Below are positions 18,110-23,320 of a stretch of 38,552 nucleotides of DNA, in pieces (position 1 is the first letter of the stretch; every line of letters begins with the position of its first letter). The notes beneath the pieces were generated by a model, which made no database searches, was not told where the DNA came from, and was given only the letters and a program-made list of their open reading frames with translations. This DNA is from Candidatus Izemoplasma sp. (GTDB lineage: Bacteria > Bacillota_I > Bacilli_A > Izemoplasmatales > Izemoplasmataceae): contig JAGYII010000010.1 in assembly GCA_018402725.1 (NCBI GenBank), forward strand, positions 1 through 38,552, written 5' to 3'. Made by a program: the position numbers and the translations under genes.

Positions 18110-18145
18110 AAAGGATTTCACTGATGTGAAATCCTTTATTTTTTT
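18110..18145. terminator. Bidirectional terminator between the operon and the anti-sigma gene
   Basis: AAAGGATTTCAC (18110-18121) pairs with GTGAAATCCTTT (18126-18137) around TGAT. Plus strand continues ATTTTTTT; minus strand continues in a T-rich tract. It serves the long operon and the convergent anti-sigma gene. Confidence 0.88.
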
Positions 18146-18842
18146 AAGGGCGACCTGGAAAGATGCCAAGGCGTCTAGACAGTTGAATCAGTTCTGGCAT
18201 CGAAAGAGTTCTTAAGTTTTCTAAATCCTCGGTAGGGTCGTTTTCAAGGATCGTTTGAATCAGATTATCACGCATTGGGTTGGTCATCATACCGGTGGAT
18301 TCAGGTTCACTTGGATGAAAGGAATCCCCATCAACGAGATCATCAAAGAGCGGGGATTGACCCCTAACAAGCTGCGCTTGAAGTTTACCCATGACCCGGG
18401 ACTTAGCGAGGTCTGAACGTGACCGGACACTGTACATAATGGTCGTGTGATCCGGCCGCTGAGGAGCCGTTTCTAAAGTAATTAAGAGCTGATCCATGAC
18501 GGTTTCTAAGGACGCGTTACGCCAAGCATGGGTGGTTTTTAATATCGCCACTAAGGCTTCCCCTTCGGGATTGGTTCCAGAAATTGAGATAACTTCATCC
18601 TCGTCATTTAAACCGATGCTTAAGGCCGCATCAAAATCAAGATAAACGGTACTGGCTTCAACCGGAGTAGGGACTAAAAAAGGCAGGCTTAATAAGCCAA
18701 TTAAAAGGATTCCAAACGCAAAGCTGAGCGCGGGTTTTAACCGGCGTGATTTTAAGGGCGATGTTTCAGGCATGATGTGACTGAGGACATCTGGGACATC
18801 ATACGACGCCATTCTTTCAATCTTTTTTTCAATCCGTTTCAT
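18144..18842 (-). CDS. RsgI-like membrane anti-sigma factor
   Basis: 232 aa with a short cytoplasmic N-terminus (residues 1-37, basic), one transmembrane helix (about 38-57) and an extracellular part. Right after the helix, VYLDFDAALSIGLNDEDEVISISGTNPEGEALV matches the beta-rich segment that follows the membrane helix in RsgI-type anti-sigma factors. The remainder (100-232) is charged and not recognised. It overlaps the sigma factor gene by 14 bases, the classic arrangement for an anti-sigma factor. It probably holds the sigma factor at the membrane until an envelope signal arrives. RsgI proteins usually partner SigI; here the partner looks like an ECF factor, which is worth noting. Confidence 0.75.
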   Translation of the reverse strand: MKRIEKKIERMASYDVPDVLSHIMPETSPLKSRRLKPALSFAFGILLIGLLSLPFLVPTPVEASTVYLDFDAALSIGLNDEDEVISISGTNPEGEALVAILKTTHAWRNASLETVMDQLLITLETAPQRPDHTTIMYSVRSRSDLAKSRVMGKLQAQLVRGQSPLFDDLVDGDSFHPSEPESTGMMTNPMRDNLIQTILENDPTEDLENLRTLSMPELIQLSRRLGIFPGRP

Positions 18843-19359
18843 CGATTTTTACCTTCTTTAATTTTTTTAACGCTTGTTGATAGCGCCATGTGATCGTGCC
18901 AAGGGGTTTATTTAAGGCGGTGGCAATGGTTTGATGGGTTTCTTTTAATAAGACATGTCTTAAGACAATTTCTTGGTCTTCAAGATCGAGTTTCTTAATC
19001 AGTTGATAGACATAGGTTTTCTTGTAATAATCAGGATCAATCCCCCCAAACAAGGCTTCATTATCGGACACATCTAACACCGATGTGTTTTTTCTTTGGT
19101 GATAATGATTGATCGCTAAGTTGCGGGCGATGGTGGAGACCCAGGCAGCAAAGTGGGTGTTTTCTTGATAGGACTGAATGCTTTTTATGACCCGCATGTA
19201 GGTATCTTGTAAGAGGTCTTCGGCATCCCGGTCATTTTTGACAATGGTTAAAATCGTGTAGTAAGCACGCGTTTTAGTGGCTTCATAAAGGATTTTAAAG
19301 GAAGTTTCATCCCCATTTTTAAATCGCTGAATTGCTTTGGCGAGTCTTTTGTCCGTCAT
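18829..19359 (-). CDS. ECF-type RNA polymerase sigma factor
   Basis: 176 aa. Region 2 (about residues 20-90) has the family run AEDLLQDTYMRVIKSIQSYQ and FAAWVSTIARNLAINHYHQRKN. Region 4 (about 118-170) has the helix-turn-helix ETHQTIATALNKPLGTITWRYQQALKKLKK. There is no extra domain, so it is a minimal group 4 sigma factor. It would direct transcription of a small set of envelope genes and likely of itself. The gene is followed by its anti-sigma factor with a 14-base overlap and is divergent from the surface protein at 19471, a plausible target. No convincing matching -35/-10 pair for both directions could be picked out of the 111-base intergenic region. Confidence 0.9.
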   Translation of the reverse strand: MTDKRLAKAIQRFKNGDETSFKILYEATKTRAYYTILTIVKNDRDAEDLLQDTYMRVIKSIQSYQENTHFAAWVSTIARNLAINHYHQRKNTSVLDVSDNEALFGGIDPDYYKKTYVYQLIKKLDLEDQEIVLRHVLLKETHQTIATALNKPLGTITWRYQQALKKLKKVKIDETD

Positions 19360-19470
19360 CTTTTCACACTCTTTAAACCTTAAAAGGCTCTATTTTATTG
19401 GGGGTTTTTGGTTTTTTTTAATAAAAAGAAATTCAATGACTTCTAGGTATCATCTGTTTGAGGTGATGAA

Positions 19471-21036
19471 ATGAAAAAAGTATTAATTTTATTGGTTTTA
19501 CTTTGGGGTCTTTCGTGGGGATCCTTAGAGGCGTCATCAAGTGGGAAAAACTTACTTAATCCGGCTTTATTTACGCTTTCAAACCACGTCTTAGAAAATA
19601 CGGAAGCCATCTCGGTTGAAGGAGGAGAGACCTATACCCTATCTTTACCCGAATATTACGCCATCGACTTAGTCCATGTTAAAGTCGTTGGGGTCTCTAA
19701 TGAAATCTATATTGATGAAGTCGTGAATGTTTATCAGAACTGTACCTTAGAGGGGTATTATACCGTATGCTCCTTCATGGTGGCGCCTTCTGAAACAGGT
19801 TTAATGATTTCTTTTAAAGATGGGTATATTTCTCAGTGGCATCAATACTATGAAATGTATGACTTTCAACTTGAAAAAAACCCAGTAAGAACGGCGTATG
19901 AACCCTATCTAAGTGGCAGTGGAGATTCGAATGGCCCGGTCATGCAAGGGGCTGGAAATATCATAGTATCCTATGCCCGTAACGTGCCCCTTGCGACGTT
20001 AATTGAAGAAAATCTCCAAGCGCACGATAATATCGATGGGGATATCACGGGCCAAATTCGAGTGGTGGATGATGCCTATACGGGCCATGAAAACATTACG
20101 GGTCGTTATACGGTCTTACTCAGTGTCTCTGATACTTCAGGGAATACGACGCTTTTTGAACTGGTCATTGATGTCGTCGATAATGTCCCTCCCGTCATAT
20201 CAGGACCTTCCACCGTCGACGTCCAAATTGACGCGAAGCCTTTATTAAACGATCTGATTGCGAATCATTTTACCTTTAATGATGTTTATGCCGGAGTGAT
20301 TCAATCCTTTGTGGTCTTAAGTGATGCCTACACCGAAGCGACCGTTGTCGGTGAATATCCGGTGACAATCATGATTGAAGATGTTTCGTTAAACCGGACG
20401 GAGCGAACCTTTTACGTCCATATTCAATCAGATTTACCCCCGGTCATGGAGGGCCCTGATACGGTTAGACTCTATTTATCAGAAACCCCTAACGCCCAAA
20501 AGGTGACGCAGTTATTTACGGCTTCAGACCGGGCGACAAGTGACGATTTAGCGATTGATTTAGTTTCAACAACGATTGACGATTGGACCTTGTCAGGACG
20601 TTTTCAGGGGACTTTATCGGTGACCGATTCCTTTGATAATGTCTCGACTCGGAAGATTACGATTGTGATCATCGATGACATCCCGCCTATCTTTACGTAT
20701 GACAATCAAATCGTGATTCCCTTAGGAACCTCGATTAAAGAATCCGATATCATGGAAATGGTCATTCAATACTATGAAGATCAGGGCGTCGATGTCTCTT
20801 CGTTAAGAATGATTGATAACAACTATCACGGGAACGAATTTAAAGAAGGGAGTTATCCTTTTACGGTTGAAGTCTTGAGTTTTACCGGAGACACCTTTAT
20901 CCATCAAGGAAGGATCAGTGTTGAAACCATCCTTGATGAACCGGAAAGCCTTTGGCCCTTAAAAACACTCGGCTATTCAGCCCTCATGGGCAGCCTTGGC
21001 TTCGCCTGGTTCGTGCTCCGCAAACGTCTGATTTAA
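19471..21036 (+). CDS. Membrane-anchored surface protein with DUF5011-like Ig repeats
   Basis: 521 aa with an N-terminal signal peptide (MKKVLILLVLLWGLSWGSLEAS) and a C-terminal helix (about residues 498-515) followed by a basic tail (RKRLI), so most of it is outside and tethered at the C-terminus. Residues ~25-148 look like a jelly-roll carbohydrate-binding-type module, ending in FQLEKNPVRTAYEPY, a segment often seen at the end of such modules. Residues ~160-490 hold about four Ig-like units of DUF5011 type (AHDNIDGDITGQIRVVDD, GRYTVLLSVSDTSGNT, VVDNVPPVISGPSTV). No enzyme motif. Likely cell-surface binding or structural role. Start codon has GAGGTGATG upstream. Divergent from the sigma/anti-sigma pair, so it may be controlled by it. 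Confidence 0.8.
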   Translation: MKKVLILLVLLWGLSWGSLEASSSGKNLLNPALFTLSNHVLENTEAISVEGGETYTLSLPEYYAIDLVHVKVVGVSNEIYIDEVVNVYQNCTLEGYYTVCSFMVAPSETGLMISFKDGYISQWHQYYEMYDFQLEKNPVRTAYEPYLSGSGDSNGPVMQGAGNIIVSYARNVPLATLIEENLQAHDNIDGDITGQIRVVDDAYTGHENITGRYTVLLSVSDTSGNTTLFELVIDVVDNVPPVISGPSTVDVQIDAKPLLNDLIANHFTFNDVYAGVIQSFVVLSDAYTEATVVGEYPVTIMIEDVSLNRTERTFYVHIQSDLPPVMEGPDTVRLYLSETPNAQKVTQLFTASDRATSDDLAIDLVSTTIDDWTLSGRFQGTLSVTDSFDNVSTRKITIVIIDDIPPIFTYDNQIVIPLGTSIKESDIMEMVIQYYEDQGVDVSSLRMIDNNYHGNEFKEGSYPFTVEVLSFTGDTFIHQGRISVETILDEPESLWPLKTLGYSALMGSLGFAWFVLRKRLI

Positions 21037-21064
21037 ACGCTTGGAATTTCAAGCGTTTTTTTTT
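21035..21064 (+). terminator. Terminator of the surface protein gene
   Basis: AAACGCTTG (21035-21043) pairs with CAAGCGTTT (21050-21058) around a 6-base loop, followed by Ts to 21064. The stop codon overlaps the stem. Confidence 0.88.
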
Positions 21065-21120: not shown

Positions 21121-21134
21121 CTATAGAGGTGACC

Positions 21135-21557
21135 ATGAATAAAGAAATCTTGCGTCAAAGTCTCAATGCCTTTTTAAAACGCTATTATGACGGCTCAAAA
21201 GAGTTGTATCAACGGATGGATTTACCCGAACTGACCCAAAAGCAGTTTAAATATCTTCAGGCCCTCGATTCCGATTCACCTTTAACGATGACCGATTTGG
21301 CCGATCAGTTTTTATTGGCTAAGCCGACCGTGACCGACATGGTCAACAAATTTAAAAAAGCGGGATTAATAAAAAGAACTCGCTCAAAAACCGATCAGCG
21401 GATTTATTATTTAAATCTAACGCCTCTTGGACAGACCATGGCCAATACCAATACCTTAGAATCAGAAGAACTAACCAAGACCATTCAAAGCATCCTCACT
21501 GAAGAAGAACAGCACCTCTTAAAAAAATTATTTGATAAGATAGGACACCGTTCATGA
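21135..21557 (+). CDS. MarR-family transcriptional regulator
   Basis: 140 aa winged-helix regulator. The recognition helix region is LTMTDLADQFLLAKPTVTDMVNKFKKAGLIKRTRSKTDQRIYYLNLT, with the wing Asp-Gln-Arg motif. ATG 21135 follows AGAGGTGA; the in-frame GTG at 21129 is inside the ribosome binding site. It is the first gene of an operon with two half-exporters, and its upstream region carries a perfect 19-bp palindrome over the promoter, so it very probably represses its own operon and is released by a compound exported by the pump. The stop overlaps the exporter start in ATGA. Confidence 0.9.
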   Translation: MNKEILRQSLNAFLKRYYDGSKELYQRMDLPELTQKQFKYLQALDSDSPLTMTDLADQFLLAKPTVTDMVNKFKKAGLIKRTRSKTDQRIYYLNLTPLGQTMANTNTLESEELTKTIQSILTEEEQHLLKKLFDKIGHRS

Positions 21558-23320
21558 TATTTGGCCAGACGATTAATAAATACTATAAAAAATATTTCTT
21601 CCGTTTTTTCATCGGAGTTTTAGCCCTCATTATGGTGAACTACGCTCAATTAGAAATTCCAAGACTCACCGGCGAACTCATTGACGGGTTAGCCGATGGA
21701 ACTTATGGGCAGCCTGAATTATTACGGTTGATCAGCATGATTGCGCTGGTCGGGGTATTAATTACCGCCGGCCGTTTTTTCTGGCGGATTGGAATCATTG
21801 GCGCCGCTAGAAGAATTGATTATGACATCCGTAATGAAATGTTTAAAAAATCTTTAATCTTATCCAATGACTATTATTCAAACCATAAAGTGGGGGGCTT
21901 AATGGCCCACTTCATCAACGATACCCAAGCCGTTAGGATGGCGATTGGCCCCGGGATGATTATGTTTGTGGATGCGGTCTTTTTAGGGTCCTTGGTTTTA
22001 ATAAGAATGTATGCCTTATCCTCATCGCTCACCTTGTTGGTGGTAATTCCTTTATCGACCATTGCGGTCGCTGGAACGATTCTTGGAAACAAAATGCGGA
22101 AACGATTTAAAACCGCTCAAAAGGCCTTTGAAGAACTCTCAGACTTTACCCAAGAAAGCTTTTCAGGCATTGCCGTGGTGAAAGCTTTTGTGAAAGAAGG
22201 CATTGAGCTCCGTGAGTTCTTAAAGACGAATCAAAACACCAAAGATAAAAACATAGCTTATGTCCGCTTAGCGACCATCTTACAAATCATTGTCCAATCC
22301 GTCGTCTCGTTAGTCTTTATCTTGATTATTATCTTCGGGGCCCAGCTGATTTTGAGTTCAGAAGCGAGTGCCAATCCCTTTACGGTGGGTGGCTTGGTGG
22401 CCTTTAGTAGTTACTTTGGGCTCTTAGTATGGCCAATCATGGCCGTCACGATGATCATTAGAACCCGTTCACAAGGGAAAGCATCGCTTGAGCGGATTGA
22501 TGAAATCTTATATGCCCCCGTGGACGTCTATGATGCCGATGATGTGGTTGAAGTCGATGAATTAAAAGGGGACATCTCCTTTAAACATTTAGACTTTAAG
22601 TACCCTGACGGTGATGAACTCGCCCTTCAAAATATCAATATGGATATCAAAGCCGGTGAAACGGTGGGCATATTAGGCCGCACCGGTTCAGGTAAAACCA
22701 GCATTGTCGACTTATTATTAAGAATTTACAACGTAAAAAGAGGACAGCTTTTTATTGATGGCATTGACATCATGCAAATCCCTTTAAAAACACTCAGAGA
22801 AAACTTTGGTTATGTGCCTCAAGATGGTTTCTTATTTAGTGACACGATTAAAAATAATATTACCTTAGGCCTCCATCATGACCCCGATATTCAAAAAGTG
22901 GAAGATGTCGCGATGATGAGTGATGTTCACGACAACATCATTACCTTTAAAGATGGGTATGAAACCATCATCGGTGAGCGCGGCGTGACCTTGTCAGGCG
23001 GTCAAAAACAACGGGTGTCCATTGCCCGGGCCTTGATGAAAAATGCCCCGATCTTAATCTTAGATGACGCCGTGAGTGCCGTAGATACCGCCACCGAAGA
23101 AAAGATTTTAAATAACTTGAAAAAGATGCGTCAGGGTATGACTACGATCATGATTGCGCACCGTATTTCGACGGTGAAATACGCCGATAAAATTATTCTT
23201 ATTGATGATGGGGAAGTGATCGCCACCGGCGATCATGCCACTTTACTGAAAACCTCAGAACTGTATAAAAAAATGGTCCAACAACAAAGCTTAGCGCAAG
23301 ATAAGGAGGTGGTTTTATGA
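21554..23320 (+). CDS. ABC exporter half, pair 1 first subunit (degenerate Walker B)
   Basis: 588 aa with an N-terminal six-helix type I exporter domain (to ~residue 320) and a C-terminal ATPase. Walker A is GRTGSGKTS (near 374), the signature LSGGQKQRVSIARAL (near 479), and Walker B ILILDDAVSAVD. The residue after the Walker B Asp is Asp, not the catalytic Glu. This is the pattern of the BmrC/TM287-type subunit in heterodimeric exporters, in which one ATP site is inactive. It overlaps the MarR gene and the partner by 4 bases each. The likely role is export of a drug, lipid or peptide controlled by MarR. Confidence 0.9.
   Translation: MIFGQTINKYYKKYFFRFFIGVLALIMVNYAQLEIPRLTGELIDGLADGTYGQPELLRLISMIALVGVLITAGRFFWRIGIIGAARRIDYDIRNEMFKKSLILSNDYYSNHKVGGLMAHFINDTQAVRMAIGPGMIMFVDAVFLGSLVLIRMYALSSSLTLLVVIPLSTIAVAGTILGNKMRKRFKTAQKAFEELSDFTQESFSGIAVVKAFVKEGIELREFLKTNQNTKDKNIAYVRLATILQIIVQSVVSLVFILIIIFGAQLILSSEASANPFTVGGLVAFSSYFGLLVWPIMAVTMIIRTRSQGKASLERIDEILYAPVDVYDADDVVEVDELKGDISFKHLDFKYPDGDELALQNINMDIKAGETVGILGRTGSGKTSIVDLLLRIYNVKRGQLFIDGIDIMQIPLKTLRENFGYVPQDGFLFSDTIKNNITLGLHHDPDIQKVEDVAMMSDVHDNIITFKDGYETIIGERGVTLSGGQKQRVSIARALMKNAPILILDDAVSAVDTATEEKILNNLKKMRQGMTTIMIAHRISTVKYADKIILIDDGEVIATGDHATLLKTSELYKKMVQQQSLAQDKEVVL

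Follow-up and report, generated by a model that had tools for sequence, protein, structure and literature searches.

This study concerns a sigma/anti-sigma gene pair in Candidatus Izemoplasma sp. (GenBank assembly GCA_018402725.1) and the gene divergent from it. The stretch of DNA analysed, hereafter the window, is the whole 38,552-nt contig JAGYII010000010.1 (contig C2 of the genome that we call G000, a 1.02 Mb draft that is 85.5% complete). Three open reading frames (ORFs) are present where an earlier note, made from the sequence alone, had placed them (Table 1). The ORFs of the sigma factor and the anti-sigma factor overlap by 14 nt, and the ORF of an Ig-repeat protein runs divergently from the sigma ORF across a gap of 111 nt.

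Table 1. Features of the sigma/anti-sigma locus and its surroundings (window coordinates).
Feature	Position	Strand	Basis or remark
ECF sigma factor, 176 aa, regions 2 and 4 only	18829-19359	-	Pfam Sigma70_r2 and Sigma70_r4_2
Anti-sigma factor, 232 aa	18144-18842	-	Pfam RsgI_M, AF2 model, PDB matches
Codons of D71-A72, at the RsgI Asn-Pro position	18627-18632	-	Alignment and model
Promoter-like motif of the sigma operon	19363-19401	-	Matrix score 25.0
Terminator-like hairpin, bidirectional, between the anti-sigma gene and an alpha/beta-hydrolase gene	18110-18137	both
Ig-repeat tethered surface protein, 521 aa	19471-21036	+	Judged outside the circuit
Terminator-like hairpin behind the Ig gene, before marR	21035-21058
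MarR regulator	21129-21557	+	Pfam
First ABC exporter	21554-23320	+	Sequence reading

By its domains, the product of the first gene is a minimal extracytoplasmic function (ECF) sigma factor: Sigma70_r2 (3.3e-15) and Sigma70_r4_2 (8.7e-7) are both over the Pfam cut-off. SigI factors are defined by a SigI C-terminal domain in place of region 4, according to PMC6056542; the window sigma has region 4 by Pfam and is thus not of this kind. The anti-sigma is laid out as a cytoplasmic segment (residues 1–36), a transmembrane helix (37–56) and an RsgI_M/SEAL domain with C-terminal helices (64–224). RsgI_M is its sole Pfam match at E-values up to 10 (E 2.8e-6, 28.4 bits against a cut-off of 25.3). Of the two RsgI regions that the earlier note had proposed to search for, the middle one is therefore present, by this score and by the fold described below, and the N-terminal sigma-I-binding domain was not found. 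As a single sequence, the anti-sigma had no match in NCBIfam or, by phmmer, in the PDB. We aligned 42 anti-sigmas from sigma-adjacent places, the window included; L147 (truncated), L163 (not matched by the anti-sigma profile) and the 15 anti-sigmas of L170–L184 stand outside this alignment. Pfam finds RsgI_M in 41 of the 42, and their profile did find B. subtilis RsgI (1.8e-18) and C. thermocellum RsgI chains. An AlphaFold2 (AF2) model from 13 sequences has a mean pLDDT of 78.1, rising to about 90 over the SEAL core. Its eight top Foldseek matches are RsgI periplasmic domains (E 3.1e-6 to 1.2e-3). These score Z 11.4–15.0 with a second aligner (8t9n, 15.0; 8hdj, 13.9), against 4.3 for the next PDB entry, and the best has a root-mean-square deviation (rmsd) of 2.1 over 108 residues. 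By profile and model, the outer part of the protein is an RsgI_M/SEAL domain.

The pairing recurs. Among 61 loci, the window included, a gene matching a profile grown from the window anti-sigma lies directly downstream of sigma in 53 of 54, which is not an unbiased rate because the loci were chosen by sigma or RsgI_M matches. Homologues of the sigma (any ECF, E<=1e-3) occur in 95 of 120 relatives and RsgI_M in 80 of 120; the sigmas of the sister species are 55–57% identical to that of the window. The best named matches of a sigma-family scan are drafts titled Tenericutes, Candidatus Izimaplasma, Acholeplasmatales and Mollicutes. Beyond the family, RsgI_M stands behind sigma in all seven named loci chosen, including Clostridia and a Christensenella draft; having been picked for a DINPS motif or a near form of it, they are examples and not a rate. 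A SEAL-only profile run on 80 named loci (nine without a called sigma ORF) found a SEAL anti-sigma in 14 of the 71 with a called sigma ORF, another anti-sigma in 51 and none in six; the lipoprotein entered for L297 in that scan is the locus's own anti-sigma. The reading of the locus as an ECF sigma paired with an RsgI-like anti-sigma is thus borne out by the Pfam domains on both proteins and by their recurrent adjacency. The accompanying generalisation, that RsgI segments as a rule belong to anti-SigI factors, does not hold for this lineage, in which the ECF/SEAL pair is common. Among titles and the beginnings of abstracts, mostly without subscription papers, we recognised no description of RsgI_M with ECF partners or of SEAL lipoproteins, and do not claim that none has been published.

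What sets the window pair apart is the loss of Asn-Pro at the position that we take to be the RsgI cleavage site. Asn-Pro is found in 38 of the 42 aligned anti-sigmas and in all 15 of L170–L184. The four sequences without it read DA in the window, ET and DT in its two sister species, and QA in L157, where the aligned stretch does not resemble a SEAL domain. The dipeptide is gone in all three members of the genus found with an anti-sigma gene, and an assembly error is an unlikely source because the three species differ in the replacing residues. In the model, strands 64–69 and 73–78 flank the scissile loop, and model residue 72, just after the expected cut, is where the second chains of the deposited RsgI1, RsgI2 and RsgI6 domain structures begin to align.

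A motif, CCAAYAAAA-N14-GTTWA followed by GTGAA, is shared upstream of the sigma genes. It was scored with a matrix trained on 43 sites, with the window's genus excluded from training. The window copy reads CCAATAAAA at 19393-19401 and GTTTA at 19374-19378 on the reverse strand, followed by GTGAA; the next best score anywhere in the window is 4.4. The sigma start codon lies 14 nt after GTTTA (19357-19378), closer than in the sister species, and the sigma transcript of the window may be nearly leaderless. Scores of at least 15 were obtained upstream of sigma in 41 of the 79 named loci with enough sequence, against 0 of 79 shuffles and 0 of 547 stretches at eight other offsets. These eight served as the control because a single control at +1500 nt gave 13 of 77–78, at sites just behind the anti-sigma and mostly before lipoprotein genes, which suggests a second promoter. 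Outside the family, 28 of 65 named sigma loci score at least 15, some of these possibly coming from genomes of the order that also served in training. The motif looks like a promoter of this sigma group and is treated below as a candidate. The earlier note had proposed to look for a shared -35 motif between the divergent genes; the score is 25.0 on the sigma side and -14.8 on the Ig side.

In the relatives, the gene behind the motif is often a lipoprotein with the same SEAL domain (lipo-SEAL). Motif-led lipoproteins at RsgI_M matches make up 15 of the 45 sites read; the rest are mixed, with ten lacking a sensible gene. Seven further motif-led lipo-SEAL loci raise the coverage to 19 of the 49 family genomes. 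In 11 of 54 loci, the gene directly upstream of sigma also matches the anti-sigma profile; most of these are lipo-SEALs at the head of the operon. In a set selected by RsgI_M score, blind to the motif (30 loci giving 27 rows; the L029 row is a longer, wrong ORF whose site was read as L261), six family lipo-SEAL genes that had not been used in training score 33.5–43.0 and a seventh 15.2, two that had been used score 39.6 and 40.4, and those of G003, G027, G030 and G039 are without the motif. The lipo-SEALs of other families in this set remain below 15 (14.9 to -12.1 in the neighbouring family). The profiles of anti-sigmas and lipo-SEALs match at 99.6% over 169 columns, the C-terminal helices included. 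All 12 aligned lipo-SEALs carry Asn-Pro; that of L325, outside this alignment, reads Ser-Pro. Other genes behind the motif, named by sequence reading, are a trypsin-like lipoprotein (G011), a subtilase and small membrane or secreted proteins. In the relatives, the same sigma switch thus appears to drive an exported lipoprotein with the same sensor.

The arrangement has changed in the window's genus. All four genomes keep a lipo-SEAL with Asn-Pro, none has the motif upstream of it, and in its place G001, G002 and G003 have a TATAAT-like box near the start. Three of the four keep sigma and anti-sigma; no sigma homologue was found in G001, a draft that is 81% complete. The lipo-SEAL of the window's own genome (G000:C1:85135-85536; L185:9025-9819) is a stand-alone lipoprotein with intact RsgI_M and Asn-Pro, and no sigma of this group was found in the 19.9 kb around it. 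The motif is found before other genes. In the own genome, a copy of 16.8 bits lies 28 nt before the start codon of an HtrA-like surface lipoprotein with Trypsin_2, PDZ and Listeria-Bacteroides repeats (G000:C1:55390-56883; L269:391-1884), whose orthologues in the genus are 70–74% identical. A homologue in G011 has an 18.8-bit site about 95 nt before its start, in which GTTGA replaces GTTWA; a TATAAT-like box lies between the site and the start. The sister species have the motif before a different gene, which encodes a small secreted protein and runs divergently from sigma. These genus-specific proteins change fast (L126:8420-9067, 215 aa; L127:8488-8982, 164 aa), each behind its own motif copy. 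They were tried as relatives of the lipo-SEALs or anti-sigmas and rejected, their matches to the two profiles being weak (42.6% and 6.9%), as is the likeness of L126/L127 to the lipo-SEAL C-terminus.

From the domains, fold, site loss, motif and site-2 protease gene read in sequences and models, we propose, with moderate confidence, a positively autoregulated circuit of an ECF sigma and a membrane anti-sigma that acts through regulated proteolysis. The short cytoplasmic N-terminus of the anti-sigma would bind and hold the sigma, and the SEAL domain with its C-terminal helices would be the sensor outside the membrane. In the order that we infer, a signal would lead to a cut of the anti-sigma outside and then to one within the membrane by the site-2 protease. 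This protease is encoded in 45 of 49 genomes, 42 of them over the cut-off, and in the own genome (PF02163 at G000:C12, 1.5e-61). The freed sigma would use CCAAYAAAA-N14-GTTWA as its promoter to transcribe the sigma operon and genes for a few exported products. In the relatives, the first cut would be pre-made by Asn-Pro autoproteolysis, and the lipoprotein with the same SEAL ectodomain would be the main target. With Asn-Pro lost in the window's genus, the first cut would have to come from a separate site-1 protease, which the window anti-sigma probably needs in place of self-cleavage; the HtrA-like lipoprotein is the best candidate found for this role.

Several observations weigh against this proposal. 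The strict pattern occurs at 67 sites, in 35 of the 49 family genomes, and its reverse still gives 28; this control and the ten sites without a sensible gene indicate that many strict hits are chance. Outside the family, 37 of 65 named sigma loci score below 15. The own genome has three strict sites only, one with a short spacer, and allowing one mismatch adds seven with a 14-nt spacer. The best of these (G000:C40, 15.0 bits) was dropped because it lies inside a coding ORF, in antisense. The motif before the HtrA-like gene is weak: an antisense hit in a neighbouring coding ORF scores higher (17.2), and the orthologue loci of G001, G002 and G003 have nothing above 0.2, which makes the HtrA step the least sure. 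The loss of Asn-Pro and the uncoupling of the lipo-SEAL are one event in one genus, and their link has n=1. Lastly, the low RsgI_M score of the window anti-sigma also fits decay. In a system decaying along with a reduced genome, the SEAL domain would be vestigial and the anti-sigma a locked brake with few or no targets. The missing Asn-Pro, the 28.4 bits, the genus lipo-SEALs without the motif, the apparent absence of sigma from G001 and the three strict sites would all be expected. Against this stand the intact ORFs and the sigma-operon motif in all three species that hold the pair, the similarity of their sigmas and the confident SEAL fold of the model, and we consider decay possible, though on balance unlikely.

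An alternative that would leave the ordinary RsgI mechanism in place is that the SEAL domain still cuts itself, at Asp-Ala. The loop and the fold are kept in the model, but Asn-Pro is otherwise near-invariant. The RsgI periplasmic domain cuts itself, and C. thermocellum RsgI8, which lacks the self-cleavage motif, is reported not to, in PMC12203970. Self-cutting at Asp-Ala thus seems quite improbable. A further alternative concerns the motif, which might be an RNA element or a repressor site and not an ECF promoter. Dyads occur in some copies (e.g., L126 and L132), and the mean folding z is -0.50 for the sigma sites taken by themselves, but it is -0.19 over all 43 sites and +0.55 for the lipoprotein sites, and no register has a clear excess of pairing; the folding and pairing-register tests gave an RNA element no support. 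The motif has two boxes with fixed spacing, lies mostly a short distance before the start codon and also precedes ECF genes in other families, all of which argues for a promoter and makes the alternative very improbable, although the motif could be a site for protein binding of some other kind.

The proposed ECF circuit resembles the SigI/RsgI systems (B. subtilis RsgI; C. thermocellum RsgI1–9) in having a SEAL domain beside one transmembrane helix, an adjoining sigma gene and a site-2 protease gene. Unlike these, the window has an ECF partner with region 4, no RsgI N-terminal domain that we could find, no Asn-Pro and no carbohydrate-binding C-terminus that we could see, and no penicillin-binding transpeptidases were detected in its lineage. 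The RsiV-type pairs are similar in another way: they have a minimal ECF sigma, an overlapping anti-sigma gene, likely autoregulation and presumed intramembrane proteolysis. The window pair differs from them in its SEAL sensor, and a further ectodomain type, one with no Pfam model, is found on relatives in its sigma group. The absence of the self-cleavage motif is shared with C. thermocellum RsgI8, whose initiating signal is given as unidentified in PMC12203970 and which, unlike the window pair, belongs to the SigI/RsgI set of a cellulolytic bacterium.

The signal may also be of another kind. A role in sensing cell-wall defects and plant polysaccharides has been discussed for RsgI/SEAL domains. 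A penicillin-binding transpeptidase was not found in the 49 genomes, the own one included, where 10 of 14 control genomes were positive. Complete loss of peptidoglycan is inferred at the ancestor of Mycoplasmatales and Izemoplasmatales in PMC10868615, and the window's bacterium is probably wall-less. Cell-wall sensing, the role given to B. subtilis RsgI in PMC10202637, is therefore unlikely here, and SEAL domains on ECF anti-sigmas in this lineage without detected transpeptidases probably report something other than the wall. The pair is of interest because its cleavage site is gone and because its relatives have exported copies of the sensor: the natural loss in one genus puts the direct question of whether signalling needs self-cleavage, and the conserved motif provides a ready list of candidate targets.

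Anti-sigmas from other lineages of the sigma group carry another kind of outer domain. It reached no Pfam cut-off in the three tested, and SEAL and non-SEAL anti-sigma profiles match at chance level (8.1%). A second motif lies right behind the anti-sigma in 13 named loci. Seven of these loci have a lipo-SEAL gene next; in L326 and L356 the next gene encodes a lipoprotein that is related to the outer domain of the neighbouring anti-sigma (1.6e-4 and 1.3e-14 for the own-locus pairs; 99.6% over 279 columns between profiles, with the L360 lipoprotein added). An ORF of 80 codons was not found at the expected place in L340, L348 and L355. As an observation apart, L326:10624-11724 and L356:4242-5285, with their upstream anti-sigmas, carry a Pfam-less ectodomain type common to ECF anti-sigmas and motif-led lipoproteins. 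A motif-led lipo-SEAL (14.0–31.1 bits) accompanies a non-SEAL anti-sigma in nine named loci and a SEAL anti-sigma in two. The nine suggest that matching sensors are not needed everywhere, which is a further point against the circuit as we have drawn it for the relatives. As far as genomes can tell, the sigma group would recurrently drive an exported lipoprotein of one of two sensor types, with the types mixed. One speculative possibility is a module of three parts, in which the sigma brings about the export of a lipoprotein whose sensor domains are of the kinds found on the anti-sigmas. If both proteins have autocleaved SEAL domains, the free body of the lipoprotein could re-cap the membrane stub of the anti-sigma, giving feedback by strand exchange, and re-capping would shield the stub from the site-2 protease and end the response. 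The SEAL domain and the unnamed ectodomain each occur in both roles, mixed, which would imply a shared extracellular interface. An uncleavable anti-sigma together with a lipoprotein outside the regulon, as in the window's genus, is what such a module would predict. Taken together, these suggestions are rather unlikely to hold in full.

The divergent Ig-repeat protein appears to be a bystander whose gene lies outside the ECF circuit and travels with MarR and ABC genes, judging from its neighbourhoods and upstream regions. That the pair senses substrate or envelope state together with this protein and controls it, as the earlier note had hinted, is a remote chance: the two are divergent and adjacent in the window and in G015, and Ig homologues occur in 13 of the 61 chosen loci (window included), but immediate adjacency to sigma is limited to these 2 of 54, the upstream regions of homologues stay below 15 (best 5.7 among 30 scored of 31), and the sister species have several intervening genes, riboflavin-type by sequence reading. 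MarR, by comparison, follows within three genes in 24 of the 31 homologues, the other seven lacking it in the stretch seen. No Pfam model reaches its cut-off on the 521-aa protein. In its model, a beta-rich N-terminal module is followed by Ig-like domains and a C-terminal helix (498–520). Checked for the carbohydrate-binding-like module of the earlier note, the protein showed a weak match of residues 23–138 to the Epf adhesin domain (Z 6.6, rmsd 3.0, 94 aligned), and the Ig-like domains have PDB matches over residues 151–405, the best with Z 11.1.

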